A DNA stretch of 35,437 nt from Myxococcota bacterium (GTDB lineage Bacteria > Myxococcota_A > UBA9160 > UBA4427): positions 1-35,437 of the forward strand of contig JANQSB010000659.1 in NCBI GenBank assembly GCA_028284295.1, given 5' to 3'. The notes under the pieces are model-generated. The model was not told where the DNA came from, made no database searches, and was given only the letters and a program-made list of their open reading frames with translations. The translations under genes and the position numbers were made by a program. Positions 11,286 through 23,562 of the stretch are shown here, piece after piece; within the stretch, counting starts at the first letter, position 1, and each line of letters begins with the position of its first letter.

Positions 11286-12749
11286 GTGGACCGGGCGCGC
11301 GGAAGGGGGGTCCAGGCGGAGGTCCTGGTGAGCCTCGCGCTCGCCATGACCACGGCGGTCGCGCTCCTGGCCGCCTTCTTCCTGCAGGCCCACGCCAATC
11401 ACCTGGAGCGGCTCGCGCCGGCCCTCGGACGGGCGCTCGCCGCGGAGGCGGACCGGGCGCCGCTCGGGATCACCGAGACGGTGGGCAGTGCCACCTGGTT
11501 CCGTGTCGTGCCCGGGGTCGAGCCGCTGCCACACGCGATCACTGGCGAAGTCCTGGACCGGGCCGGGCGGGACCTCGCCGACGACGCCCGGACGACCGGG
11601 AAGCCGCTGCTGCAGCGCGGCTGGCCGTGGCAACCCATCCGCTTCGCGACGCCCGTCGCGGGCGCGACACCGGGGGTGGTGGCCGTCGCCGTGCTGCCGC
11701 CCTCGATGGACGGCTGGGTGCTGGTCGGCCTGCTCGCCGTGGACGGGCTGGTCTTCGCCTGGCTGGGCGGCTACCTGCTGCGCCGGCGGGTGGTCTCGCC
11801 CCTGCGCGAGCTGGCGCGGGTGGCCCGCGAGATCGAGGACGACGGTCCCGGTCCCCGCGTGGCCGTCGAGGGCGTGCGCGAGACGGTCGAGGTCGGAGAG
11901 GCGCTGAGCGACATGAGCGAAGGACTCGCGCGCCGCAGCGCCGAGCTGGAGAAGGCGGTCGCCGAGCTGCGCCAGGCGAACTCGACCCTGCGTCGCGCCC
12001 AGGACGGCCTGGACCGCTCCGAGCGGCTGGCTTCCGTGGGGCGTCTGGCGGCCGGCGTCGCCCACGAGGTCGGCAATCCCATGGGTGCGGTCCTCGCGTT
12101 CCTCGACCTGGTGGGCCGCGACGAGGGGCTCTCGGAGAAGTCGCGAGGCTATCTGGAGCGTGCCCTCGAGCAGTGCCAGCGGGTGAGGCGCATCCTGGGG
12201 CAGCTGCTGGACTTCTCGCGTCCTCCGCGCCCGACGCCTGCGGAGTTCGATCTGCGCGAGGCGGCGGAACAGGCGGTCGCGCTCGTCGCGGCCCAGAGGC
12301 GCTACGACGGAATCTCGTTCGAGGTCGACTGCGAGCCGGGAGCCGATCCTTCGGACGCGCCGGCGACGGTCCGGGTGATCGCCGACGAGAGCGTGGTGGC
12401 CCAGATCCTGCTGAACCTCGTCCTGAATGCCGCGGACGCGGTCGCGAGGCTGGAGGAACCGCAGGTTCGACTGACCGTCGCCTCGCGCACCGAGGCGGGT
12501 GGCGTCGTCTGTGCGGTCGAGGACAACGGGCCCGGGGTCGAGCTCGAGGACCGTCGTCGCGTCTTCGATCCCTTCTTCACCACCAAGGCGCCCGGGGAGG
12601 GGACCGGTCTGGGCCTGGCCACCGCCCTGCGGCTGGCCGAGGAGATGGGGGGCAGCCTGGAATGCCAACGCCCCCGGCAGCTGCCGGGGGCGTGCTTCGT
12701 ACTCTCGCTCCCGGCCGCCGGAGCAGCCGGCCCGACTACTGGGGCATGA
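11286..12749 (+). CDS. HAMP-containing sensor histidine kinase without adjacent regulator
   Basis: A 487-residue membrane kinase: first membrane segment about 12-33, an extracytoplasmic sensor region (about 34-139), second segment about 143-163, HAMP (about 165-215), a coiled-coil linker, HisKA with His260 in AAGVAHEVGNPMGAVLAF, then an ATPase domain with NLVLNAADAV, DNGPGVE, FDPFFTTK and GTGLGLATALRLAEEM. The HEVGNP variant is common in kinases of NtrB/ZraS type that serve sigma-54 activators. The GTG start is 5 nt after the pilR stop. Its partner is not adjacent; PilR or the activator at 22046-23407 are candidates. Its last 14 bases overlap the convergent gene, and a 26-bp perfect palindrome sits in its last codons. 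Confidence 0.85.
   Translation: MDRARGRGVQAEVLVSLALAMTTAVALLAAFFLQAHANHLERLAPALGRALAAEADRAPLGITETVGSATWFRVVPGVEPLPHAITGEVLDRAGRDLADDARTTGKPLLQRGWPWQPIRFATPVAGATPGVVAVAVLPPSMDGWVLVGLLAVDGLVFAWLGGYLLRRRVVSPLRELARVAREIEDDGPGPRVAVEGVRETVEVGEALSDMSEGLARRSAELEKAVAELRQANSTLRRAQDGLDRSERLASVGRLAAGVAHEVGNPMGAVLAFLDLVGRDEGLSEKSRGYLERALEQCQRVRRILGQLLDFSRPPRPTPAEFDLREAAEQAVALVAAQRRYDGISFEVDCEPGADPSDAPATVRVIADESVVAQILLNLVLNAADAVARLEEPQVRLTVASRTEAGGVVCAVEDNGPGVELEDRRRVFDPFFTTKAPGEGTGLGLATALRLAEEMGGSLECQRPRQLPGACFVLSLPAAGAAGPTTGA
12668..12693 (-). terminator. 26-bp perfect GC palindrome downstream of the PilY2-like gene
   Basis: The left arm ACGCCCCCGGCAG is followed directly by its exact reverse complement. 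It lies 42 nt past the stop of the convergent small exported gene and inside the last codons of the histidine kinase gene, so it could terminate the minus-strand unit. No strong U-tract follows on either strand. It shares the arm CGCCCCCGGC with the hairpin at 13101-13128. Confidence 0.5.
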
Positions 12750-13083
12750 GCTCCACGGTGAGACGGGTCGCCTCGATCCCCTTCCCGCCCGCCTTGCCGG
12801 AGTAGACCACCAGCACCGGGTGCATGCCCGGCTCGGGGATCTGCGCGAACGAGATCCGCTTCTCGTCGCCGTCGTAGATCCGGGTGTCCTCGGTCACCTT
12901 CACCAGCGTGTCCTCGAGCTGCAGGGTCATGTTGGCGAGGTCCTTGGAGACGAGGATCTCCTTGCCGCTGGCCGAGCCGGCCCAGGCCGGCGCCGCCAGC
13001 AGGAGGATCGTGAAGGCGGCGAGGGCGGCGAGTGCGATTCGGCGTCCCCGGCCTCGCGAGTCGTTCGGGATGGGAGTCTGCAT
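12736..13083 (-). CDS. small exported PilY2-like protein
   Basis: A 115-residue protein with an N-terminal signal peptide (RRIALAALAAFTILLLAAPAWA, cleavage probably after AWA near residue 35) and a mature domain of about 80 residues: KEILVSKDLANMTLQLEDT, a short TRIYDGDEKRISF segment, PEPGMHPVLVVYSG, and a final EATRLTVELMPQ strand. That strand order resembles the small beta-barrel/DUF5666-like fold, in which a value set in RIYD...ISF precedes a PGM turn. PilY2 of Pseudomonas is also a small exported protein directly downstream of pilY1, which is the position here. The PilY2 assignment is inference from position and pattern. ATG follows CAGGAG at 8 nt. A 13-bp hairpin separates it from pilY1. 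Confidence 0.6.
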   Translation of the reverse strand: MQTPIPNDSRGRGRRIALAALAAFTILLLAAPAWAGSASGKEILVSKDLANMTLQLEDTLVKVTEDTRIYDGDEKRISFAQIPEPGMHPVLVVYSGKAGGKGIEATRLTVELMPQ

Positions 13084-13157: not shown

Positions 13158-16100
13158 CTAGAGCTCTCGCCAGTAGAACTGTCCGATGCCGCCACCCCCG
13201 TCGGGCAGGGGGCAGTCGTTCGGCCAGTTCGGGCAGGGGCAGTCCGGTCCGGGGCAGTCCGGCGTGCCGTCCCCGTTCAGGTCACCCGAGCCCGGGACGA
13301 CCACCTCGCCGTCCTGGTTGTTGATGATGACCTTGTTGGGGTTCGGCTCGGTCGAGCTGCCCGTGTACCCGCCGCTGCTGATGGTGATCTGGGGCGAGGT
13401 CGGCATGCCCGAGCCCAGGTCGACGCTCACCGAGGACACCCCGCCGCTGCCCGGCTCCACGAAGACGCCCTCGCCGCAGTACACCTTGTAGGCGTACAGC
13501 TTCGCGAGTCCGCTCGAGATGCAGGGGTTGTTGCTGATAGTGGGCACGTAGGAGGCCGCGAGCACCGTGAAGGAGAAGATGTCGGTCTCCGTGACGAACT
13601 TCTCGGCCTCGTCGCCGACGAAGTAGAAGCCGTCGTAGGACGCGATGTCCGCGCAGCCGGTGTAGGAGGGCAGCTCCCTCAGGTCCGTCTCGGTCTTGAC
13701 CACCGTCGAGCCCCCCTTGTCCAGCGGGTCCTTGTCGAGGATCGAGTAGAGGCGGTTGTTCTCGAGGGTGGTGCCGGCGAGGCCCGGATCGCGGATGTTC
13801 ATCCGCTCGCCGGTGCCGACCACGAGCCACAGGTTTCCGTTCTTCAGCGTCGCGCTGGGCGTGTAGTACATGCTCTTGTAGTAGGTCTTGGCCGGGGGGC
13901 CCGCCGAGTAGTAGGTGGGCGCCGAGAAGACCTTGCGGAAGGGCCAGTTCGGCTGGGCGACCGAGCCGCCACCGTTGATCGGATCCTGTCCGATGGTGCC
14001 GATCACCCACTTCCAGACGTTTCCGCCCAGGTCCGTCATGTAGATGACGTCCGCGTAGCCGTCGAAGTCGAGGTCGAAGACCGCGGGCGAGGCCGGCATC
14101 GCGTAGTGCATGGCCTGCTCGGGATTCGTCGACGAGTACACGAAGGTCGACGGATCCGTGGACGAGCTGGTGCCGGATGGATCGAACTTCTTCTCCGCCA
14201 GCACCTGACCCGTCTTGAGGTCGAGGATCACGATGCCGCGGCCCTCGGTGGCCTCCACGTCGTAGGAGGCATCGTCGTTCGGGTCGCTCTCGGGCGCGTA
14301 GCCCAGGCCGAACACCGCCACCCAGCGGTCGTAGCCGGGCGTGCTGGCGTTGGGCGTACTGACGCTGGGATTGACCTTGATCTTGACCACGACCGGCTGC
14401 GACCAGGTCTGGCCCATGTAGTCGACGATGCCGCCCGTGGCGTCCTCGCGCGGGAACTCCCACAGGTAGCAGGGGTACATGCCGCCGCTGGCCGGGGAGG
14501 GGCAGGTGATCGAGGACGGGTCCGTGATGTCGAGGGCGTAGTAGCTGTTGCCCCCCTGGCGCAGACCGCCCATGGCGATGGTGCGCCAGCCCTGCCAGCC
14601 CGTGCCGTCCTTCGGCCCGTTCACCGAGGAGGAGCCGTAGAACCAGACGTCTGCCACGGTGGCCGATCCGTCGACGCCGTAGAAGCTGCGCCCGTTGGCG
14701 TCGATCGGGATCTTGCGGGCGATCTGGCGCGTCGAGTAGGGCATGAAGCCGGCGATCTCGGCGCCGGTGCCCTGGTCGTAGGCGGGCGGCGTGTTGCCGC
14801 TCTGCCAGGTCCCGGCGTCGAAGAGGCGCAGGAAGCCGTCGTTGGCGCCCGCGACGATCACGCGCTTGCGGTGCTCGTAGTACTTCGCGAAGGCGACGTA
14901 GTCGAGGTCCCGCTGGAAGGAAGACGGTCCCGGCACCACGACCGGATCCGAGTGGAAGATGTCCCCGAGCTTCCAGCGCCGCTCGTCGCAGCCCGCACCG
15001 GTGGAGCCGAGCTCGCAGCCGCGCAGGTTGTCGACCACGACGGTGCGCAGCTCGTCGGCGTCGGTGGGCGGCGTGTAGCCGGCGTAGACGTAGTCGGAGA
15101 TGTTCGCCGCCGTCAGGTCCAGGTGCGCCGGGGTGATGTTGGAGCTGTCGAAGAGGGTCAGCTGGCTGACGCCCGCGGTCCCGGTCAGGGTGCTGGTCAC
15201 GAGCTTCCGCGAGCCCGGGGTGCGGTTGTCGAGCTCCTCGCCGGCGTCCCAGTAGGGGACGGCGGTGGTCTTGAAGGAGCCCGCCACGCAGGTGGTCGGA
15301 GCGCCCGGGTCGTTCAGCGCGCAGTTGTCGTTGGAATCGAGGATCGCGCCGGCTGCGGTGATCTGCCAGGACCGGAGGTGACCCTCCCAATAGCCACTGT
15401 CGTTGCCCGGAATGAAGAGGCTGGTGTAGAACTGACCGCCCTGGGAAGTCCGGGTAGCCGGCACCGTGGCCGCCGTGAAGGCCTGGCTCTTGCGCACGAT
15501 GTCGCTCAGGGTCTCCGAGATGGCGTCGGCCAGGGCCGCGGCGTTGTTGCTGGTGTGGAACTGGCCGTTGCCGACGTTGGCGGTCAGCTGCAGCAGGCTG
15601 TTGGCCGCGTCGCCCGTGGTGAAGCCCACCGTGTAGGTGTCGATGAACTGGTCGACGCCGTTGTGCGGGTCCATGTCGGGTCGGAAGTCGTTGTCCTGCA
15701 TGTACTTCGCGATGTCGTCGAGGAACCAGGCGCACTCCAGGCTCGAGCCGTAGATGCACTCGGGTGCGGAGGTCGGGTACTCGTTCTGGCCGTCGACGTT
15801 GTAGTCGCCGATCAGGGTGTTGAAGTTGCTGAAGCCGAAGTCGGTGCTGCCGCCGTTGGCGTCGAAGTCGTCGCGGGTGGGCTCGCCGTCGGTGATGATG
15901 ACGACGAAGTTCTTCTGGCAGGCGTGCTGGACCGGGCTGTCGGGCACCGTGGGCGAGCCCGAGCTGCTGTAGGGGCCGTTGTTGGTGGTGCGGTAGACGT
16001 ACTCGGGGAAGGTCACGCCCCCGTTGGCCGGTCGGTCGCCGGCCGTGCGGCTCATGAAGTAGGTGTAGATCTGGAACAGGGTCTCGCCGAGCGGCGTGTA

Positions 16101-16862
16101 GGTCTCGCCGGCGAGGTCGTCGATCGCGTCCTCGAGGTGATCGGCGTGGCTCTGGGTGGTGCCGTTCAAGGAGTAGACGTTGGGATTGCCGGCGTCGTCC
16201 AGATAGTCGTTGGAGGGGACGACGATGTAGCCGCCGTTGGGGTCGCTGGCGTCGCGGAACTGGGCCAGGCCGAAGCGGACCCGGCCGCTGGTGTTCACCT
16301 CGCAGATGACCTCCTTGAGGATCTGCTTGGCGGCCGTCACGCGCGAGCGGCGATAGAGGTTGTAGCTGCCGCCGCCGATGCAGGCCGAGTAGTTGCCGTT
16401 GTTGGTGGCGCGGATCTCCGAGATGTAGGGGGTGGCGGCGGCACTGTAGAGCCAGTTCAGATAGCGCCCGAGGTACCAGGTGTCCTCGCCCGTCGCCTGC
16501 ACCTCCGGGTCGACGAAGATCTCGCGGCCGCTCGAGACGCAGTTCGACGAGCTGATGCTGTGGGTGCCCGAGCGGAAGCTCGTGTCCGAAGAGCCGCTCG
16601 GGTAGGAGTCGCTGCTCGACGAGTTGACGTAGTAGGTGCGGGTGTCGCTCCAGTAGCGGCAGGCCGGCGTCGCGCTGGGGTCGAAGGCCGGGTGCCAGAC
16701 GGCGTGGAGCATCGAGAGGGAGTTGTCCATCACGAGCATCACGTTGGGCGCGACCACCGTGGAGAAGAGCACGGTGTCGTCCGCTCGGGCGGCGCGCGGG
16801 CTCGCGAAGGCCAGCAGGGCGGCCGCGACGAGGGCGATGCGAGAGGCGGTGGGGAAGTTCAT
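13158..16862 (-). CDS. pilY1: type IV pilus tip adhesin / assembly factor PilY1
   Basis: A 1234-residue exported protein. Signal peptide: about residues 1-27, ending AAR-A. A von Willebrand A-like domain starts near residue 38 with the MIDAS-type DNSLSM (Asp46) and includes FVVIITDGEPTRDDFDANGG. The C-terminal half is the PilC/PilY1 beta-propeller, with VIVAGANDGFLRLFDAG, VDGSATVADVWFYG, WQGWRTIAMGGLRQGG and the calcium-loop region FDLDFDGYADVIYMTDLGG (Asp930 onward). PilY1 caps the minor-pilin tip, promotes extension and binds surfaces. The tail is unusual: a second loop DLNGDGTPD, then a Cys/Pro-rich stretch with four cysteines. The ATG at 16862 follows AGGAGAACGCC. An open frame 51 codons further upstream crosses the sigma-54 promoter and is not used. 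Confidence 0.93.
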   Translation of the reverse strand: MNFPTASRIALVAAALLAFASPRAARADDTVLFSTVVAPNVMLVMDNSLSMLHAVWHPAFDPSATPACRYWSDTRTYYVNSSSSDSYPSGSSDTSFRSGTHSISSSNCVSSGREIFVDPEVQATGEDTWYLGRYLNWLYSAAATPYISEIRATNNGNYSACIGGGSYNLYRRSRVTAAKQILKEVICEVNTSGRVRFGLAQFRDASDPNGGYIVVPSNDYLDDAGNPNVYSLNGTTQSHADHLEDAIDDLAGETYTPLGETLFQIYTYFMSRTAGDRPANGGVTFPEYVYRTTNNGPYSSSGSPTVPDSPVQHACQKNFVVIITDGEPTRDDFDANGGSTDFGFSNFNTLIGDYNVDGQNEYPTSAPECIYGSSLECAWFLDDIAKYMQDNDFRPDMDPHNGVDQFIDTYTVGFTTGDAANSLLQLTANVGNGQFHTSNNAAALADAISETLSDIVRKSQAFTAATVPATRTSQGGQFYTSLFIPGNDSGYWEGHLRSWQITAAGAILDSNDNCALNDPGAPTTCVAGSFKTTAVPYWDAGEELDNRTPGSRKLVTSTLTGTAGVSQLTLFDSSNITPAHLDLTAANISDYVYAGYTPPTDADELRTVVVDNLRGCELGSTGAGCDERRWKLGDIFHSDPVVVPGPSSFQRDLDYVAFAKYYEHRKRVIVAGANDGFLRLFDAGTWQSGNTPPAYDQGTGAEIAGFMPYSTRQIARKIPIDANGRSFYGVDGSATVADVWFYGSSSVNGPKDGTGWQGWRTIAMGGLRQGGNSYYALDITDPSSITCPSPASGGMYPCYLWEFPREDATGGIVDYMGQTWSQPVVVKIKVNPSVSTPNASTPGYDRWVAVFGLGYAPESDPNDDASYDVEATEGRGIVILDLKTGQVLAEKKFDPSGTSSSTDPSTFVYSSTNPEQAMHYAMPASPAVFDLDFDGYADVIYMTDLGGNVWKWVIGTIGQDPINGGGSVAQPNWPFRKVFSAPTYYSAGPPAKTYYKSMYYTPSATLKNGNLWLVVGTGERMNIRDPGLAGTTLENNRLYSILDKDPLDKGGSTVVKTETDLRELPSYTGCADIASYDGFYFVGDEAEKFVTETDIFSFTVLAASYVPTISNNPCISSGLAKLYAYKVYCGEGVFVEPGSGGVSSVSVDLGSGMPTSPQITISSGGYTGSSTEPNPNKVIINNQDGEVVVPGSGDLNGDGTPDCPGPDCPCPNWPNDCPLPDGGGGIGQFYWREL

Positions 16863-16916
16863 GGCGTTCTCCTGGGTCCTGCCGGCGGCTCGTTTCCGCG
16901 GGCAGGGAAGGGGATC

Positions 16917-16932
16917 GCAAGCCGCGTGCCCA
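16917..16932 (-). promoter_or_regulatory. sigma-54 promoter of pilY1 (one mismatch)
   Basis: On the minus strand this reads TGGGCACGCGGCTTGC, matching TTGGCACG-N4-TTGC at eleven of twelve fixed positions with exact -24/-12 spacing. Transcription would start near 16905, leaving a leader of about 43 nt before the pilY1 ATG. It lies in the 184-bp gap after a strong hairpin, so pilY1 appears to have its own activator-dependent unit. The bases after TTGC (GA) match those of the FimT-operon promoter. Confidence 0.75.
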
Positions 16933-16982
16933 TCGGCTTGTCTAGCCGTAAGCATCGGAAAAACGGGCACTTTCCTGAAACG

Positions 16983-17019
16983 AACGATGCGGCCCCGGGG
17001 CTCCCGGGACCGCATCGTT
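16983..17019 (-). terminator. hairpin between the Ig-like lipoprotein gene and pilY1
   Basis: AACGATGCGG (16983-16992) pairs exactly with CCGCATCGTT (17010-17019), and CCCGG/CCGGG arms inside can extend the stem. It lies 28 nt past the lipoprotein stop on the minus strand. The minus-strand tail (CGTTTC) has few U residues; the plus strand ends in TTTT, so it may work in both directions. It is a good candidate for the end of the minor-pilin operon. Confidence 0.6.
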
Positions 17020-17046
17020 TTGCGGAGTACGAAGTTTCTTGCGGTC

Positions 17047-18054
17047 TCAGTAGCCGCGCGCCGCCGGGGCCGGCTGGCCGGGCTGGACGCCCACCGTGAG
17101 CTCGAAGGTGAAGGTGCTGCCCTCGCCGCGGCCGTCCTTGACCCCCACCTCGACGGGGTGGACGCCCGCCTGGGTCGAGGTCGGCGTCCAGGTCAGCACC
17201 CCGGTGATGGCATCCATGCGCATGCCGGTCGGACCCTTCTCCAGGAAGAAGCGGAGGTTGCGGTCGCCGTCGGGGTCCTTCGCCACGAAGGTGTAGGTGA
17301 ACTTGCCGTCTTCGGCGCGACTGGCGGGCAGCTGCGTGATCATGGGCGGCGAGTTCCCGAGCATCAGCACGGGGCTGTGCTCCTCGCGACTCTGGCTGCG
17401 GCCGTCGGAGGCGACGACGGTCACCTGGATCTTGTCGCCCCGCCTGAGTCCCGTGGTGTCGAAGCTTCGCTCCCGACCATTCTCGTCGCCGTTGACCGTC
17501 CAGCTGTAGCGGAAGCGGAGCGAGTCGTTGTCGGGGTCGCTGGCGTGCGGGGTGGCCTGGATGGTCTCGCCTGCCCGCACGTCGCCGAAGGGCTCGAGGG
17601 TGACCGAGGAGAGCACCGGCGGCCGGTTCCCGGCTCGCACCGTCGCCTTCATGGGTGCGCTGGTGTTGAGCCCGTCCGAGGCCGTGACCGAGACCTCGAC
17701 CCGGTCGTTCTTCTTCAGGTCGACGAGGTAGTAGACGGGCTTCTCTCCGCGCCGGACCTCCTTGCCGTTGTGGCTCCAGACGTACTCGTAGCGGAGCGCG
17801 TCTCCGTCCGGGTCGGAGGCCTCGACGATGGCGCGGAGCTCCGTGCCCGGCGCGAGCACCGGCGGCGTGATGACCACCCGCTCGATCACGGGGTCGCCGA
17901 GGCCGGCGCTGGATGCCGCGGCCTCGCTCTCCGTCGCGGACGGGGCGACGATGGCGTTGCCGGTGGGGGTCGGTGTGCTGTCGTCGGAGCCGCAGGCCAG
18001 GGCCAGGGCGGCGGCCGCCGCGCAGAGCACGATCCGGGAGTTCGACTTCGGCAT
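17047..18054 (-). CDS. lipoprotein with Ig-like/PKD-type repeats and a He_PIG-like C-terminal domain
   Basis: A 335-residue predicted lipoprotein: lipobox ALALACG with Cys21, then a Thr/Ser/Ala-rich linker (22-50). Repeats of Ig/PKD type follow, each with a DPDGD or DPDND turn: about 53-140 (VIERVVITP to VEVSVTASDG), about 145-230 (NRPPVLSSVTLEP to IQVTVVASDG) and about 235-325 (NSPPMITQLP). The last contains GPTGMRMDAITGVLTWTP and AGVHPVEVGVKDG, the putative-Ig (He_PIG) pattern. A paralogue with the same final domains lies at 21164-22006. It sits between pilX and pilY1 on the same strand, where classical systems have nothing, so a role in anchoring or presenting the tip is inferred. ATG follows AGGAGGG. 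Confidence 0.75.
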   Translation of the reverse strand: MPKSNSRIVLCAAAAALALACGSDDSTPTPTGNAIVAPSATESEAAASSAGLGDPVIERVVITPPVLAPGTELRAIVEASDPDGDALRYEYVWSHNGKEVRRGEKPVYYLVDLKKNDRVEVSVTASDGLNTSAPMKATVRAGNRPPVLSSVTLEPFGDVRAGETIQATPHASDPDNDSLRFRYSWTVNGDENGRERSFDTTGLRRGDKIQVTVVASDGRSQSREEHSPVLMLGNSPPMITQLPASRAEDGKFTYTFVAKDPDGDRNLRFFLEKGPTGMRMDAITGVLTWTPTSTQAGVHPVEVGVKDGRGEGSTFTFELTVGVQPGQPAPAARGY

Positions 18055-18072
18055 GGTGTTCCCTCCTGCACC

Positions 18073-18096
18073 CGGGCGCGCCCTTCGCGCGACCCG
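18073..18096 (-). terminator. stem-loop between pilX and the lipoprotein gene
   Basis: CGGGCGCGC and GCGCG-A-CCCG form a nine-pair stem with one bulged A and a CCTTC loop, in the 45-bp gap before the lipoprotein ATG. There is no U-tract and the downstream gene has an excellent Shine-Dalgarno, so it more likely affects relative expression or mRNA stability than ends transcription. Confidence 0.35.
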
Positions 18097-18099
18097 CGA

Positions 18100-18642
18100 T
18101 CAGTATCCGGTCGAGAGGACCTTGGTCTCCTGCACCTCGATCCGCGCGGTGGAAGCTCTCTGCTCCCAGATCCCGCCCGCGTTCTCGGGGCTCTGACCGA
18201 TCACGTTGATCCGCCAGATGGTGTTCACGTAGCGGGGATTCGAGAGGTTCATCCCCTCGGCGGGCCCCCCGTCCTCGACGTACTGGATGGCCGCGCCTCC
18301 CGCCGGCGGGTTCGGGTCCGGGAAGTAGCGGGGCCGGGCCTGGTAGCGGGCGTAGAGGGTGGCGTCGCCCAGGTTGGTGGCGGGCAGGGTGGGGGCGGCG
18401 CTGCGTGCGTCGGCGTCGGCGATCAGCTGCCGACCGTGGGCGGCTCCGGCCTCGGCGGCATAGAAGGCCGAGCGGCTCCGGTTCGTGAGGCCGGCGATCT
18501 GCTGGTCCTCGCCGGCGGTGTCCAGTGCGGCCACGCCGAGCAGGCCCATCAGCACCAGCATCATCACCGCGACGAGCATCGCGGAGCCGGATCGGCGTCG
18601 GTCGGATCGACCTCCTGCCTGGCGTCGATCTGTGAGGCGCAT
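18100..18642 (-). CDS. pilX: PilX-type minor pilin
   Basis: A 180-residue protein whose N-terminus is a clear PilX_N domain: a basic leader of about 20 residues, then SGSAMLVAVMMLVLMGLLGV, AALDTAGEDQQIAG and the diagnostic SRSAFYAAEAGAAHGRQL. PilX joins PilV, PilW, FimT/U and PilY1 in the complex that primes pilus assembly and remains at the tip. The leader junction is not a GFTLxE site and Glu5 of the mature pilin is missing; PilX proteins often diverge here, so processing is likely but not proven. ATG at 18642 follows CAGGAG. The gene begins 29 nt after the pilW stop; upstream open frame inside pilW is a shadow. Confidence 0.85.
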   Translation of the reverse strand: MRLTDRRQAGGRSDRRRSGSAMLVAVMMLVLMGLLGVAALDTAGEDQQIAGLTNRSRSAFYAAEAGAAHGRQLIADADARSAAPTLPATNLGDATLYARYQARPRYFPDPNPPAGGAAIQYVEDGGPAEGMNLSNPRYVNTIWRINVIGQSPENAGGIWEQRASTARIEVQETKVLSTGY

Positions 18643-18671
18643 GGGTCGGTCTCCTGAGGGACGCGGGGCCA

Positions 18672-19763
18672 CTAGCGCAGGCCCACGTTGCGCGGCTTCA
18701 CCGTCATGGTGAGCACCCGGCGGCGGGAGCCGTCGGCGGGCTGTGCGGGCGCCACGCGGTTCTCCATGGCGATGAAGGTGTTCGTCGCCAGGGTCGGATC
18801 CTCGGCCACGTCGGCATCCTGGGCGCGGGTGCGGATCACGACACTGAGGCGGATCTCGCGCAGCCGGCTGTGGTCCCAGCTGCCACTCTGGTACTGGGTG
18901 CCGCCGGCGATCGAGCCCGGGTACTCGGTGTTGCTCGTGAACGGCGGCTGCTGGGGGGCCGGCTGGGGATCGTTGTCGACCACGCCGTCGTCGTCGACGT
19001 CGATGAAGAAGGCCGCCTGCATGTCCTCGACGTCTTCCGCGAGAACCACGCCGTTGCGGGTGAGCTGGTTGTTGGGGTTGACCATGTAGACCGTCGCCGG
19101 AATCGCCACCAGCTCCTGGGGGTTGTCGCTCGCCGCCAGCGCGCGCAGGGGCAGGCTGCCGGTTCCTCCTTGGCCGAAGTCGTAGTCGACCCGGACCGAC
19201 GAGACGTTGGCGCCGATGTTGAGGGTGTTGGCCTCGATCCAGGCGCAGGAGTTGCCGCGGCCGGGGTTGTTGCGATCGGCGACGATGACGCCGCCTCGCT
19301 GGTTCAGGCCCGGCACGTCGACGAAGTCGCTGTCCTGGACACCGTTCCCGTCGCTGTCGTAGAAGGGGTTGCCGTCGACGGTGGAGTTGCCCTGGATGGT
19401 CAGGGTGTCCGTGTTGGTGCCGTCGTAGCCCGCCGTGATCCGGGCGCCCAGGTCGTTCTGGGTCTGGCTGATCGGGTTGATGGCGAGAGCGTCGGACACG
19501 ACGATGATGTCCGGCGCGTTCGTGCGGTCGACCGCGCACACGGCACCGCCTTCCGGGACCATGAAGCCGGTCACGCGCAGCTCCCGCTCGACCAGGTCCG
19601 TGATGACGCGCAGGTTCGTCTGGGCTTCGGCGACCTGGTCGACGACCTGATAGGTCGCGGTCTGCCGCGCCAGCATCTCCATCAGGAAGACGGACACGAT
19701 GCCGAGGATCGCCATGGCGACCATGACCTCGGCCAGGGTGAACGCTCGAATGCGACGCTTCAT
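18672..19763 (-). CDS. pilW: PilW-type minor pilin
   Basis: A 363-residue pseudopilin with basic leader MKRRIRA followed by FTLAEVMVAMAILGIVSVFLMEML; the mature Glu5 is present. It has the usual PilW region TNLRVITDLVERELRVTGFM and a large C-terminal domain. The residue before the prepilin-peptidase site is Ala rather than Gly, which usually slows or weakens processing. Two aspartate-rich loops, DSDGNGVQDSD (about residues 139-149) and DVDDDGVVDND (about 258-268), resemble calcium-binding turns. ATG at 19763 is preceded by GAGAG. It lies 8 nt after pilV on the same strand and starts a gene order identical to classical pilV-pilW-pilX-pilY1. Confidence 0.85.
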   Translation of the reverse strand: MKRRIRAFTLAEVMVAMAILGIVSVFLMEMLARQTATYQVVDQVAEAQTNLRVITDLVERELRVTGFMVPEGGAVCAVDRTNAPDIIVVSDALAINPISQTQNDLGARITAGYDGTNTDTLTIQGNSTVDGNPFYDSDGNGVQDSDFVDVPGLNQRGGVIVADRNNPGRGNSCAWIEANTLNIGANVSSVRVDYDFGQGGTGSLPLRALAASDNPQELVAIPATVYMVNPNNQLTRNGVVLAEDVEDMQAAFFIDVDDDGVVDNDPQPAPQQPPFTSNTEYPGSIAGGTQYQSGSWDHSRLREIRLSVVIRTRAQDADVAEDPTLATNTFIAMENRVAPAQPADGSRRRVLTMTVKPRNVGLR

Positions 19764-19771
19764 GGGAGCTC

Positions 19772-20197
19772 TCACGGGTCGTTGTGCCTCACGCTCGAGA
19801 TCGCGTAGGTGCTGCCGGGCGATCCCGCCGGTGCTTCGGGAGTGGTCCAGTTGACCTGCACGTCGAGCAGGCGCAGGGCGGGGTCGGGTCCGGCCTGGAC
19901 CCGCCAGGTGACCGAGTACTGCTGCGGGGCGCTGGGGCCCGAGCCGTTGGTGGGACCGTTGACCACCCGCGGCGCGCTCCAGGCCGAGGGCGGGATCGCG
20001 CCCCAGGGCTGTCGCTGCAGGAACTCCATCTGCTGCTCGGCCACGCGGGCCGCCTCGCTCACGTGCCGGCCGTGACGGGACCCCTGGAGGGCCTGGGTCT
20101 GCATGGCGAGCAGTCCGAGGAGGCCGATCGACAGGATCGTCATGGCGACCAGCAGCTCCAGCAGGGTCAGGCCCTGCTCCTCGCGGTCTCGTTGCAT
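19772..20197 (-). CDS. pilV: PilV-type minor pilin
   Basis: A 141-residue pseudopilin: leader MQRDREEQG, then LTLLELLVAMTILSIGLLGLLAMQ, with Gly at -1 and Glu5 in place, followed by the PilV-like QALQGSRHGRHVSEAARVAEQQMEFL and a short C-terminal domain ending in DVQVNWTTPE. I chose the ATG at 20197 because AGGGAG lies 9 nt upstream. An in-frame ATG at 20215 overlaps the stop of the preceding pseudopilin (TGATG) and would add six residues to the leader. The product is predicted to be an inner-membrane pilin precursor and part of the tip priming complex. Confidence 0.82.
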   Translation of the reverse strand: MQRDREEQGLTLLELLVAMTILSIGLLGLLAMQTQALQGSRHGRHVSEAARVAEQQMEFLQRQPWGAIPPSAWSAPRVVNGPTNGSGPSAPQQYSVTWRVQAGPDPALRLLDVQVNWTTPEAPAGSPGSTYAISSVRHNDP

Positions 20198-20214
20198 CCG
20201 TCGGGCTCCCTGCA

Positions 20215-20883
20215 TCAGTTCGTCCAGGCGTTCGAGGCGGCGTCCCAGGAGTAGACCTTCGGGACGCCCAGCGCGGAGAGCACGACCGCGTAGTCGCGCT
20301 GGCCGGCGGCGGCCCCTCCGTTGGTGAGGTACACGCCGCCTGCACCGGACCCGACCGGACCCGTCGCGCAGGCGTTGGTGAAGCCGACCGGGACGCCGTC
20401 GTTCCGGAAGAGCACCCGGTTCGTCTGGGCGCCGAACTGGTCGCTGAACGACGATCCGGTGGTGTGATTGCCACCGCCGCCGTCCACGGGCACACGCCCG
20501 GCAGCGAAGGTGACCCCCCAGTTCAGGTTCGCGAATTCGGTGGCCGGGTCGGTGGAGACGTTGATGAGCGTCTCGTTGTTGTCGATGCAGCAGTCGCCGT
20601 CGGCGTCTGCGAGGATCACGATGGGGCCGGGGAGGGCGTTGTTGCACGCGTCGACGGCGTTCGGCGCGGTCCACATGACGACGTGCTGCTCTTCAGCGAG
20701 GATCGCCTGGGCCCGGGCCGCCTGGAAGGCGTTCGAGATCATGCGCGCCGTCGTCTTGGCCCGGCTGTTCGACTGCATGCGGTTGAAGCCCGGGATCGTG
20801 AGCGCGGCCGCGATGCCGAGCACCGCCACCACCACCATGATCTCCGTGAGGCTGAAGCCCCGGTTGCGTCGGTTGAGCTGCAC
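20215..20883 (-). CDS. FimT/FimU (GspH)-type pseudopilin, first gene of the minor-pilin operon
   Basis: A 222-residue type IV pilin-like protein. Leader MQLNRRNRG is followed by FSLTEIMVVVAVLGIAAALT, with Gly at -1, Phe at +1 and Glu5, and by the FimT/GspH helix RMQSNSRAKTTARMISNAFQAARAQAI. The C-terminal domain contains DADGDCCIDNNE, an Asp-rich loop with adjacent cysteines, and ends NVLF-like strands then VYSWDAASNAWTN. The start is the GTG at 20883; a longer frame to 20961 would begin ahead of the predicted transcription start of the sigma-54 promoter and adds no pilin leader. It leads pilV, pilW, pilX and the Ig-like lipoprotein gene. Confidence 0.82.
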   Translation of the reverse strand: MQLNRRNRGFSLTEIMVVVAVLGIAAALTIPGFNRMQSNSRAKTTARMISNAFQAARAQAILAEEQHVVMWTAPNAVDACNNALPGPIVILADADGDCCIDNNETLINVSTDPATEFANLNWGVTFAAGRVPVDGGGGNHTTGSSFSDQFGAQTNRVLFRNDGVPVGFTNACATGPVGSGAGGVYLTNGGAAAGQRDYAVVLSALGVPKVYSWDAASNAWTN

Positions 20884-20967
20884 GATCTTCCACTCCCTGG
20901 TTGGCCCTGCAGGCGCCGTGCGGCGAGCGTCGTTCTGCCGCGAAGGCCGTCCGGTCCGCACGAGTTC

Positions 20968-20983
20968 GCAAGGGACGTGCCAA
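20968..20983 (-). promoter_or_regulatory. perfect-consensus sigma-54 promoter of the minor-pilin operon
   Basis: On the minus strand the sequence is TTGGCACGTCCCTTGC, identical to the sigma-54 consensus TTGGCACG-N4-TTGC at all twelve fixed positions. Transcription should start near 20957, giving a leader of about 74 nt before the GTG at 20883. Sigma-54 requires an NtrC-type activator, and one is encoded about 1 kb upstream on the same strand. Confidence 0.9.
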
Positions 20984-21076
20984 GCCAGCGAATCGGCTAG
21001 CCCCGCGACCTTCTTGAGCTTTCGCCGTTCTCGCCGCGGTCCGGGGCGAGCCGGCTATGCAAGGCGCTGCGGAGCC

Positions 21077-21160
21077 CGCAAGCGCTTGCGTACCGCCTTC
21101 GCGCTCGGGAAGGTCTGCACGAGGCGCAGACCCGGCAGCAAGCGAACGCGAAGCGTTCGC
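21077..21160 (-). promoter_or_regulatory. cluster of three inverted repeats, candidate activator-binding (enhancer) region
   Basis: Three dyads lie upstream of the sigma-54 promoter: a perfect 14-bp palindrome CGCAAGCGCTTGCG (21077-21090, about -120 to -133), GGTCTGC/GCAGACC with a 7-nt spacer (21112-21132, about -155 to -175), and GCGAACGC-GAA-GCGTTCGC (21142-21160, about -185 to -203). Distance and symmetry fit upstream activating sites. The distal hairpin is only 3 nt past the stop of the next upstream gene, so it could instead be its terminator. The 280-bp gap (20884-21163) holds no convincing gene. Confidence 0.5.
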
Positions 21161-21163
21161 CAG

Positions 21164-22006
21164 CTAGCGCTCCGTCCCGCTCGCATCCGCGGGTCGGGGC
21201 GTCCGCACCCACAGCACGAAGACCTGGGCGCTGCGGCCGCCGAGGCCGTCGCTCACCTCCACCCGCACGCGATGTCGTCCGGCCTGCTCGGGTCGGGGGC
21301 GCCAGGTGAGGGTGCCTTCGTGTGCCTCGATCCGCATGCCGGGGGGCCCCTCGACCAGCGCGAACTCGAGCAGGGGGTCGTCGTCCGGGTCGACGGCCCC
21401 GATCGGGTACACGAAGGCGCCGTTGGCGTCGAAACCGCGGGGGAAGGTCGTGATCGTCGGTGCCGCGTTGCCCACGACGATCTTGCCCGAGACCCAGGGC
21501 TCGCTCTCGTGGCTGCCGTCGGCGGCCACTACGGTGACTTGCAGCCGGGCGCCTCGTTCCAGGTGCTCCCGGGGCAGCACGGGCGTGGGAGTGGCGAGCG
21601 GTCCACTCGGAAGATGCCAGGTGGTGTGCAGGGAGACCGGGTCGCCGTCCGGGTCGAAGACCTCGACCTGCAGCCGCAGGTCGCTCTGTGCCGTGACCCG
21701 CTCGCGCGTGAACTCGACGCGTCGAAGGGTCGGGGGGCGATTGCCCGGGCGCGGCACCAGAGCGGCCGGTGCCGGGGCCGCGGGCGGCACGGCCTCCGGC
21801 GGCGGTGCCTCGGGACCGGGCGCGGAGACGGCGACGGGCTCCGGTCCCTCGGCGAAGGGCATCGACCGGGTGCTGGCTCCGGAGAGCAACGGCGGAAGCG
21901 CCACGAAGGCGAAGCCACAAACCGCGAGCAGGGCCGCTACCCCGGACAGTGTCTGTCCGGAGAGCGGGGGCAGGGCCCGATCCCTGTGCCTTGCGTTCGC
22001 GTCCAT
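21164..22006 (-). CDS. membrane-anchored Ig-like/He_PIG protein, paralogue of the lipoprotein at 17047-18054
   Basis: A 280-residue protein with one membrane segment or uncleaved signal (about residues 15-42, GVAALLAVCGFAFVALPPLL), a Pro/Ala-rich linker (about 55-85), then two beta-sandwich repeats. The first (about 85-175) has NRPPTLRRVEF, VFDPDGDPVSL and VTVVAADGS. The second (about 178-270) has NAAPTITTFPRGF, DPDDDPLLEFALVEGPPGM and GTLTWRPRPEQAG. Those elements line up with the second and third repeats of the lipoprotein. It is 39 nt downstream of the activator gene on the same strand, so probably co-transcribed. ATG at 22006 follows GAGG; an in-frame GTG at 22039 is possible. Cellular role is unknown. 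Confidence 0.72.
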   Translation of the reverse strand: MDANARHRDRALPPLSGQTLSGVAALLAVCGFAFVALPPLLSGASTRSMPFAEGPEPVAVSAPGPEAPPPEAVPPAAPAPAALVPRPGNRPPTLRRVEFTRERVTAQSDLRLQVEVFDPDGDPVSLHTTWHLPSGPLATPTPVLPREHLERGARLQVTVVAADGSHESEPWVSGKIVVGNAAPTITTFPRGFDANGAFVYPIGAVDPDDDPLLEFALVEGPPGMRIEAHEGTLTWRPRPEQAGRHRVRVEVSDGLGGRSAQVFVLWVRTPRPADASGTER

Positions 22007-22045
22007 CTGTTTGCCTCGGTGCGCGCCTCGTGCGGGCACCCGGAA

Positions 22046-23407
22046 TCAGTCGCGCAACCCGAACTCCTTGATCTTGTAGAGCAGCGCTCGGTGACTGATT
22101 TCGAGCAGCTTCGCTGCGTGCGTGCGGTTTCCACCGGTCGCGGTCAGGGCCCGGCGGATGGTGTCGGCCTCTGCGGCGCGCTTCGCGCGCTTGAGCGAGT
22201 AGGAGGAGCCTTCGCTGGGGTCTTCGCCGCCGATCGCCGAGACGACGCTCTCCGGCAGGTTCTGGAGCGTGATCCGGTCGGTGTCCGCGAGGATCAGCGC
22301 GCGCTCGATGACGTTCTCGAGCTCGCGCACGTTGCCCGGCCACGAATAGCCGGCGAGGCGCTCGAGGGCTTCGTCGGTGATGGTGCGGACCGGCTTGCCG
22401 AGCGCGTCGCGGAAGTGCGCGAGGAAGTGATCGGTCAGCAGCGGGATGTCCTCGCGACGCTCGCGCAGGGGCGGGACGCGCAGGTGCATGACGTTCAGCC
22501 GGTAGAAGAGGTCTTCGCGGAAGCGGCCGGCTTCGATCTCGCGTTCCAGCTCGCGCGAGGTCGCCGCGATGACCCGTACGTCCACCTGCTGGGCCTTGGT
22601 CTCGCCCACCGGGCGAACCTCTTCTTCCTGGAGCACGCGAAGGAGCTTCACCTGGAGCGCGGCGGGCAGCTCGCCGATCTCGTCGAGGAAGATGGAGCCA
22701 CCATTGGCTTCGACGAAGAGGCCGCGGCGGGCCCGCGCCGCTCCCGTGAAGGCGCCCTTGGCGTGTCCGAAGAGCTCGCTCTCGAGCAGGTTCTCGGGAA
22801 TGGCCCCGCAGTTCACGGCGACGAAGGCCTCGTCGCGACGCGGAGACTGGGCGTGGATGGCTCGCGCGAGCACCTCCTTCCCGGTTCCGCTCTCGCCGGT
22901 CAGCAGGGCGGTGGTCTTGTAGGTGGCGGTCCGTTCGAGCAGCTCGAGGAGCTCGATCATCGGCTTCGACGCCGCCACGATGGGGCGGTCGCCGACGGCC
23001 CGCTGCACGTCGCGCTGGAGCCGCGCGTTGGCCTGGCGGAGCTTCTCCCGCTCCCAGGCCTTGCGGATGGTCAGCACCACCTCGCTGGGCTGGAAGGGCT
23101 TCGCGAGATAGTCGTACGCGCCTCGGCGCATCGCCTCGACGGCGAGGTCCTCGGTTCCGTAGGCGGACATCAGGACGATCGGCGCGCCCGGCAGCTGGCG
23201 CGCGATCTGCGGCATCAGCTCGAAGCCGTCGACGCCGGGCATCCGCAGGTCGCAGAGCACCACGTCGACCGGTTGCTCCTCGATTCGTTCGAGGGCGCGC
23301 TCGCCGCAGTCGGCGGTCGCGACCTCGTAGCCCTCGCTGGCGAGCACGAGCTCGAGGCTCTCTCGGAAGGCCTCGTCGTCGTCGACGATCAGGATGCGTT
23401 GAGCCAT
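22046..23407 (-). CDS. second NtrC-family sigma-54 response regulator
   Basis: A 453-residue activator: receiver domain (1-120) with DDD at 9-11, Asp53 in VVLCDLRMPG and Lys in YLAKPFQPSE; AAA+ domain (about 140-370) with GESGTGKE, GAFTGA, GGSIFLDEIGEL and FREDLFYRLNV; and a Fis-type HTH at the end (GGNRTHAAKLLEISHRALLYK). It has all residues needed to be phosphorylated and to remodel sigma-54 polymerase. No kinase is adjacent; the unpaired kinase at 11286-12749 is a candidate partner. The ATG at 23407 follows AGAGG at 10 nt; an upstream extension of 61 codons lacks domain content. Its position near the consensus promoter suggests that it controls the minor-pilin operon. Confidence 0.9.
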   Translation of the reverse strand: MAQRILIVDDDEAFRESLELVLASEGYEVATADCGERALERIEEQPVDVVLCDLRMPGVDGFELMPQIARQLPGAPIVLMSAYGTEDLAVEAMRRGAYDYLAKPFQPSEVVLTIRKAWEREKLRQANARLQRDVQRAVGDRPIVAASKPMIELLELLERTATYKTTALLTGESGTGKEVLARAIHAQSPRRDEAFVAVNCGAIPENLLESELFGHAKGAFTGAARARRGLFVEANGGSIFLDEIGELPAALQVKLLRVLQEEEVRPVGETKAQQVDVRVIAATSRELEREIEAGRFREDLFYRLNVMHLRVPPLRERREDIPLLTDHFLAHFRDALGKPVRTITDEALERLAGYSWPGNVRELENVIERALILADTDRITLQNLPESVVSAIGGEDPSEGSSYSLKRAKRAAEADTIRRALTATGGNRTHAAKLLEISHRALLYKIKEFGLRD

Positions 23408-23562
23408 GCGGCACTTGCCTCTCGGGACCTCATCGGCAGAGAGGCGCGGTTCACCTGAGGAGGATGCGTGGAAGCGGGCAGGGCCCGGGGTGAATTCGCC
23501 GCATGTCGGCTGCCGGCTGGGGACGTGTGACTCACCGCACAAATTCCCCTCAAGGAGCCGGA

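Follow-up and report, generated by a model that had tools for sequence, protein, structure and literature searches.

There is only a partial understanding of how the complex of minor pilins and PilY1 at the pilus tip is stabilized and passed through the secretin, and the extra factors known from minor pilin/PilY1 gene clusters, TfcP and MXAN_1370, are lineage-specific. TfcP is encoded in minor pilin/PilY1 cluster 1 of M. xanthus, where it stabilizes PilY1.1 (PMC8833165). In a survey of PilY1 clusters across 67 Myxococcota genomes, TfcP and the uncharacterized MXAN_1370, encoded in cluster 3, are the extra proteins of the M. xanthus clusters, and the main text of that survey makes no mention of lipoprotein, Ig-like, immunoglobulin or PKD (PMC13190605).

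Here, we describe a type IVa pilus locus of a Myxococcota bacterium that encodes two related proteins, called A and B below, near its minor pilin genes. The window, meaning the whole stretch of DNA that was analyzed, is 35,437 nucleotides long. On its minus strand lie, in 5' to 3' order, the gene for an NtrC-family sigma-54 activator (22046..23413), the gene for B (21164..22006; 280 aa), a fimU/GspH-like minor pilin gene (20215..20880), a pilV-like minor pilin gene (19772..20284), both with provisional start codons, the minor pilin genes pilW (18672..19772; PF16074) and pilX (18100..18657), the gene for A (17047..18054; 335 aa), which pilX precedes by 45 bp, and pilY1 (13158..16862; PF05567), whose product has an N-terminal DNSLS MIDAS-like motif and a DLDFDGYAD motif resembling a calcium site. 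The pilM-N-O-P-Q genes are on the plus strand. Behind pilY1 on the minus strand comes a gene for a small exported protein of 115 aa (12736..13083), which gave no Pfam or NCBIfam match; several related tip clusters have a homolog of it in the same position, L148, L156-L160, L187, L188, L199 and L203 among them.

An earlier note on this DNA had described A and B as paralogs that share a two-domain C-terminal half, differ in anchor and linker, and are encoded between pilX and pilY1 (A) and between the activator and the first pilin gene (B). Both open reading frames and the gene order were recovered as described, and the likeness of the two proteins was borne out. A and B are 39% identical over 181 residues (BLASTP, E = 4e-30), and a search of the whole genome with A returned A itself, B and a single far weaker match (30%, E = 0.008), which places the likeness of A to B well above that to the other Ig-domain proteins of the genome. 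He_PIG (PF05345) and Big_9 (PF17963) score above the curated Pfam cut-offs in both (43.3 and 55.3 bits in A, 25.2 and 32.0 bits in B), and He_PIG was found in all 23 members of A from family f1 (E up to 0.001). We can add to the earlier description that A consists of three tandem Ig-like domains, the last being of the He_PIG/Big_9 type; the first of them is missing from B, whose two Ig-like domains are related to domains 2 and 3 of A. The AlphaFold2 models, built on four sequences for both proteins, agree with the structural match that had been expected: that of A, with a mean pLDDT of 75.5, shows three beta sandwiches and that of B, where pLDDT mostly exceeds 90, shows two, and both have disordered N-termini. 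A sequence search of the PDB gave no significant relative (best E = 0.069).

The two proteins part at their N-termini. A has a PROSITE-type lipobox, LALA-C21, and a lipobox ending in cysteine is kept in 23 of the 23 aligned members from f1. B has no lipobox; it has a hydrophobic stretch at residues 23–41 (Kyte-Doolittle mean 2.4), predicted to form an N-terminal membrane helix, and a linker that is 33% proline. From the lipobox and the helix, respectively, A is predicted to be an outer-membrane and B an inner-membrane protein, as the earlier note had proposed, and A is presumably lipidated. Neither protein matched N_methyl, the N-terminal methylation motif of prepilins, which the fimU, pilV and pilW products do match, and the heme motif CxxCH is absent from A, in which the only cysteines, at 11 and 21, are both at the signal sequence. 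A DPDGD-type acidic motif is present in all three domains of A in the window and has been lost from domains 2 and 3 in lineage g12, which weakens the idea that A acts in a calcium role through these motifs.

The note had further described A and B as bracketing the minor pilins, and a single design of this kind was not supported. A sigma-54-type -24/-12 promoter, TGGCACG-N4-TTGC(G), lies on the minus strand at 20967..20982, upstream of fimU and downstream of B. It is the only such site in the window when up to 1 mismatch is allowed (0.24 expected), and 27 of 47 related loci have a site of this type in the 500 bp that precede fimU, compared with 3 of 47 on the opposite strand. The operon from fimU to A therefore starts after B, so that the sigma-54-driven tip operon includes A but not B, whose gene follows that of the activator at 39 bp. 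A symmetrical bracket was rejected on this ground and because B is confined to one genus. A scan of 16800–22100 for sigma-70 promoters found nothing. Between A and pilY1 there is a strong hairpin with a 17-bp stem (16983..17019, minus strand), possibly an attenuator that sets pilY1 apart from the pilin genes. The sister species has a comparable hairpin there, with a core sequence in common, and the f10 loci checked showed no clear equivalent in a simple stem search that also missed the window's own hairpin. Two f10 loci have sigma-54-like sites between A and pilY1 (L157:10649-10664 and L203:9557-9572), which suggests that pilY1 could have a promoter of its own.

We then considered how widely the two proteins are distributed. 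With a profile built from 23 members, A was found in 64 of 80 genomes of the order (E up to 1e-5); across the class, 68 of 91 genomes have it at E up to 1e-20, and most of these carry a single full-length copy. Approximately 60 loci were read, covering 12 families, and in almost all of them the full-length copy lies beside type IV pilus genes, so that homologs situated away from such genes, which the earlier note had named as one ground for rejecting its proposal, are the exception for A. The genes are usually arranged as fimU-pilV-pilW-pilX-(A)-pilY1-(A), often with NtrC and pilMNOPQ behind them; genome G048 differs in having A immediately upstream of fimU. Where pilY1 is on a different contig from the minor pilin genes (G021, G022, G026 and G028), A stays with the minor pilins. 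The copies that have no pilus neighbors (L042, L128, L129 and L140) are extra copies or lie at contig ends, and their genomes each carry a linked copy as well. Genome G057 has three A-type copies, one beside pilX, one behind an NtrC gene and one unlinked to pilus genes (L125, L126 and L140). Outside the class, A is absent from 20 PilY1 loci of other classes in the phylum, and what matches it most closely outside the class is either a two-domain protein with unrelated neighboring genes or a single Ig domain within a large protein. Within the class, lineage g11 (G019 and G020; L187 and L188) has a complete fimU-pilV-pilW-pilX-pilY1 cluster and no A in the whole genome; since its tip operon is intact without A, A is not indispensable.

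The presence of A follows that of the tip genes. In the class, 65 genomes have both A and PilY1, 4 have A alone, 6 PilY1 alone and 16 neither (Fisher p = 1e-9), and among order genomes that have pilM the corresponding counts are 53, 3, 4 and 9 (p = 2e-6); these p values overstate independence, as the genomes share ancestry, and many of them are draft bins, so that some absences are gaps. The co-occurrence that had been expected in related genomes is thus class-wide for A and does not extend to B, which is confined to its genus. In a mirror-tree test, the partial Mantel correlations of A given pilM were 0.52 with pilW, 0.47 with pilV, 0.44 with pilY1, 0.36 with pilX and 0.33 with fimU (p = 0.001 each, which is the floor of 1000 permutations). 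For scale, fimU against the other tip genes gives 0.21–0.40. The association of A with the tip genes holds after dereplication (0.45), and the distance trees of A and pilM do not track each other (r 0.02–0.06). In this genus, PilY1, PilW and A, as found in the window, nest among sequences of family f10 (SH-aLRT 99, 96 and 88/91, respectively), while PilM is closest to those of its own family, f1. Read most simply, the trees indicate that the tip module was exchanged between families as one block with A in it; linkage alone could also have brought A along, and such hitch-hiking could partly produce the co-inheritance.

A is therefore a class-wide, pilus-linked family, encoded with the tip genes and inherited with them. 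We give about an even chance to the reading that it is a dedicated lipid-anchored accessory of the type IVa minor pilin–PilY1 tip complex in this class. As we picture it, A would be a lipid-anchored arm of three Ig-like domains, in the periplasm or at the outer membrane, made from the minor pilin/PilY1 operon, and it would most likely hold, stabilize or receive the FimU-PilV-PilW-PilX-PilY1 complex in the envelope before or during its passage through the secretin. Contact with PilY1 or the minor pilins, a docking or stabilizing role, and docking at the outer membrane are what we infer. In E. coli, an aspartate at position +2 of the lipobox retains a lipoprotein at the inner membrane. In the f1 members of A, this position is glycine in 16 of 23 and aspartate in 2 of 23; by the E. 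coli rule the latter two would stay at the inner membrane, which counts against the reading as a tip accessory. A stronger form of the proposal makes A a class-wide structural component of the type IVa pilus, an arm at the outer membrane by which the priming complex is docked or checked, and which lineages exchange as a single module with the tip adhesin; this we hold only tentatively, at clearly less than an even chance.

B has to be considered separately. It occurs only in the two species of this genus, where it lies behind the NtrC gene (39 bp in the window, about 25 bp in L004), and it groups with the f1 copies of A (SH-aLRT 94) and not with the A of the window, which nests in f10. Possibly, B derives from the resident copy and was modified once the module had been swapped. 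The same tree, together with the loss of the lipobox and the first domain and with faster evolution (53% identity between the two species, compared with 75% for A), would also fit a resident copy of which only a decaying or idle remnant is left, without present function, after a tip module with its own A had replaced the earlier one. We regard this as rather doubtful, since the frame is open in both species and the dN/dS of about 0.38–0.39 indicates purifying selection (about 0.27 for A; dS is near 1, so these values are rough). In our reading, B is a genus-specific, membrane-anchored, two-domain relative made with the NtrC activator and not a core part, perhaps with a similar task at the inner membrane. 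As a candidate equivalent of B in another genome, the NtrC-adjacent copy L126 of G057 was set aside: its lipobox and its grouping with family f9 make it look like an independent case.

For A, the main alternative to a tip accessory is a part of the core machine on the secretin side, a pilotin-like or TsaP-like outer-membrane anchor for PilQ whose position among the tip genes would be secondary. In the sister order, f12, the order is NtrC-A-pilM-N-O-P-Q, with the minor pilins and PilY1 elsewhere, an arrangement that makes a secretin-side role possible and fits A as an anchor of the machine too; in many members of the order A adjoins NtrC-pilM, and a pilotin is an outer-membrane lipoprotein. Nevertheless, we consider this alternative unlikely, given that A does not track PilM in the distance trees, that nine order genomes have pilM but lack both A and PilY1, and that no TPR or LysM match was found in A or B with Pfam (E up to 1).

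As a second alternative, A could act with pili at the cell surface, in cell–cell or matrix contact, as an exposed adhesin or receptor lipoprotein, and have no part in assembly. The Foldseek matches of A and B are strings of cadherin, contactin and fibronectin-type domains, and such beta-sandwich strings often serve adhesion, but Ig-like folds are generic, and the whole-chain TM-scores are low, so that the domain fold alone is informative. The orthologs of A are near single-copy and of stable 335-aa length, without repeat expansion, which together with the operon position favors a machine part and makes an adhesin improbable. Finally, the tie of B to NtrC makes a regulatory role possible, in which A and B would be envelope partners of a sigma-54 circuit and report the state of the pilus or envelope to the adjacent activator. 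In favor of it, the gene for B follows that for NtrC after 39 bp and on its strand; NtrC, A and pilM are co-directional in f12; and in family f29, outside the class, genes for two-domain relatives directly adjoin one for an FHA-sigma-54 activator, the two being separated by 26 bp or overlapping by 4 bp (L135:7927-10271 and L136:9793-12181). We nevertheless judge this reading very unlikely, as NtrC-type activators are cytoplasmic, no histidine kinase link was found, NtrC is not a neighbor of A in f10 or in most f1 loci, and the out-of-class relatives in other families have unrelated neighbors.

Returning to A as a putative accessory of the tip complex, it follows the tip genes and not the core machine, and is therefore a concrete candidate tip factor in a large uncultured class; moreover, the tip module that includes it looks transferable between families, which bears on the evolution of pilus adhesion specificity. 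In the full text of open-licence papers we found no description of an Ig-domain lipoprotein in minor pilin operons, in keeping with the earlier note, which knew of no described type IV pilus component of this kind, and we regard the A family as previously undescribed. It can be compared with several known groups of proteins. The pilotins PilF/Tgl resemble A in being outer-membrane lipoproteins of the same machine, and TsaP likewise acts at the secretin, but these proteins use TPR or LysM domains, which A and B lack by Pfam. He_PIG and Big_9 are the families of the last domain in both A (domain 3) and B; members of these families are usually repeats in large surface or secreted proteins, whereas A is a small lipoprotein of fixed make-up, encoded in a pilus operon. 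Two-domain lipoproteins of about 240–280 aa elsewhere in the phylum (L131-L138) match domains 2 and 3 of A, and in those read with an intact N-terminus the signal sequence ends at a cysteine; in contrast to A, they lie outside pilus loci, beside udk, greA or FHA-sigma-54 genes. MXAN_1370 is, like A, an additional protein of a minor pilin/PilY1 cluster, but it carries a T2SS-T3SS_pil_N domain, which Pfam did not find in A or B (PMC13190605). TfcP, like A, is an additional envelope protein whose gene belongs to a minor pilin/PilY1 cluster and which only some lineages have, but it is a soluble, periplasmic, noncanonical cytochrome c with CxxCH, whereas A is a predicted Ig-domain lipoprotein without that motif (PMC8833165). 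Of the components described, TfcP is the nearest to A in role, though not in kind.
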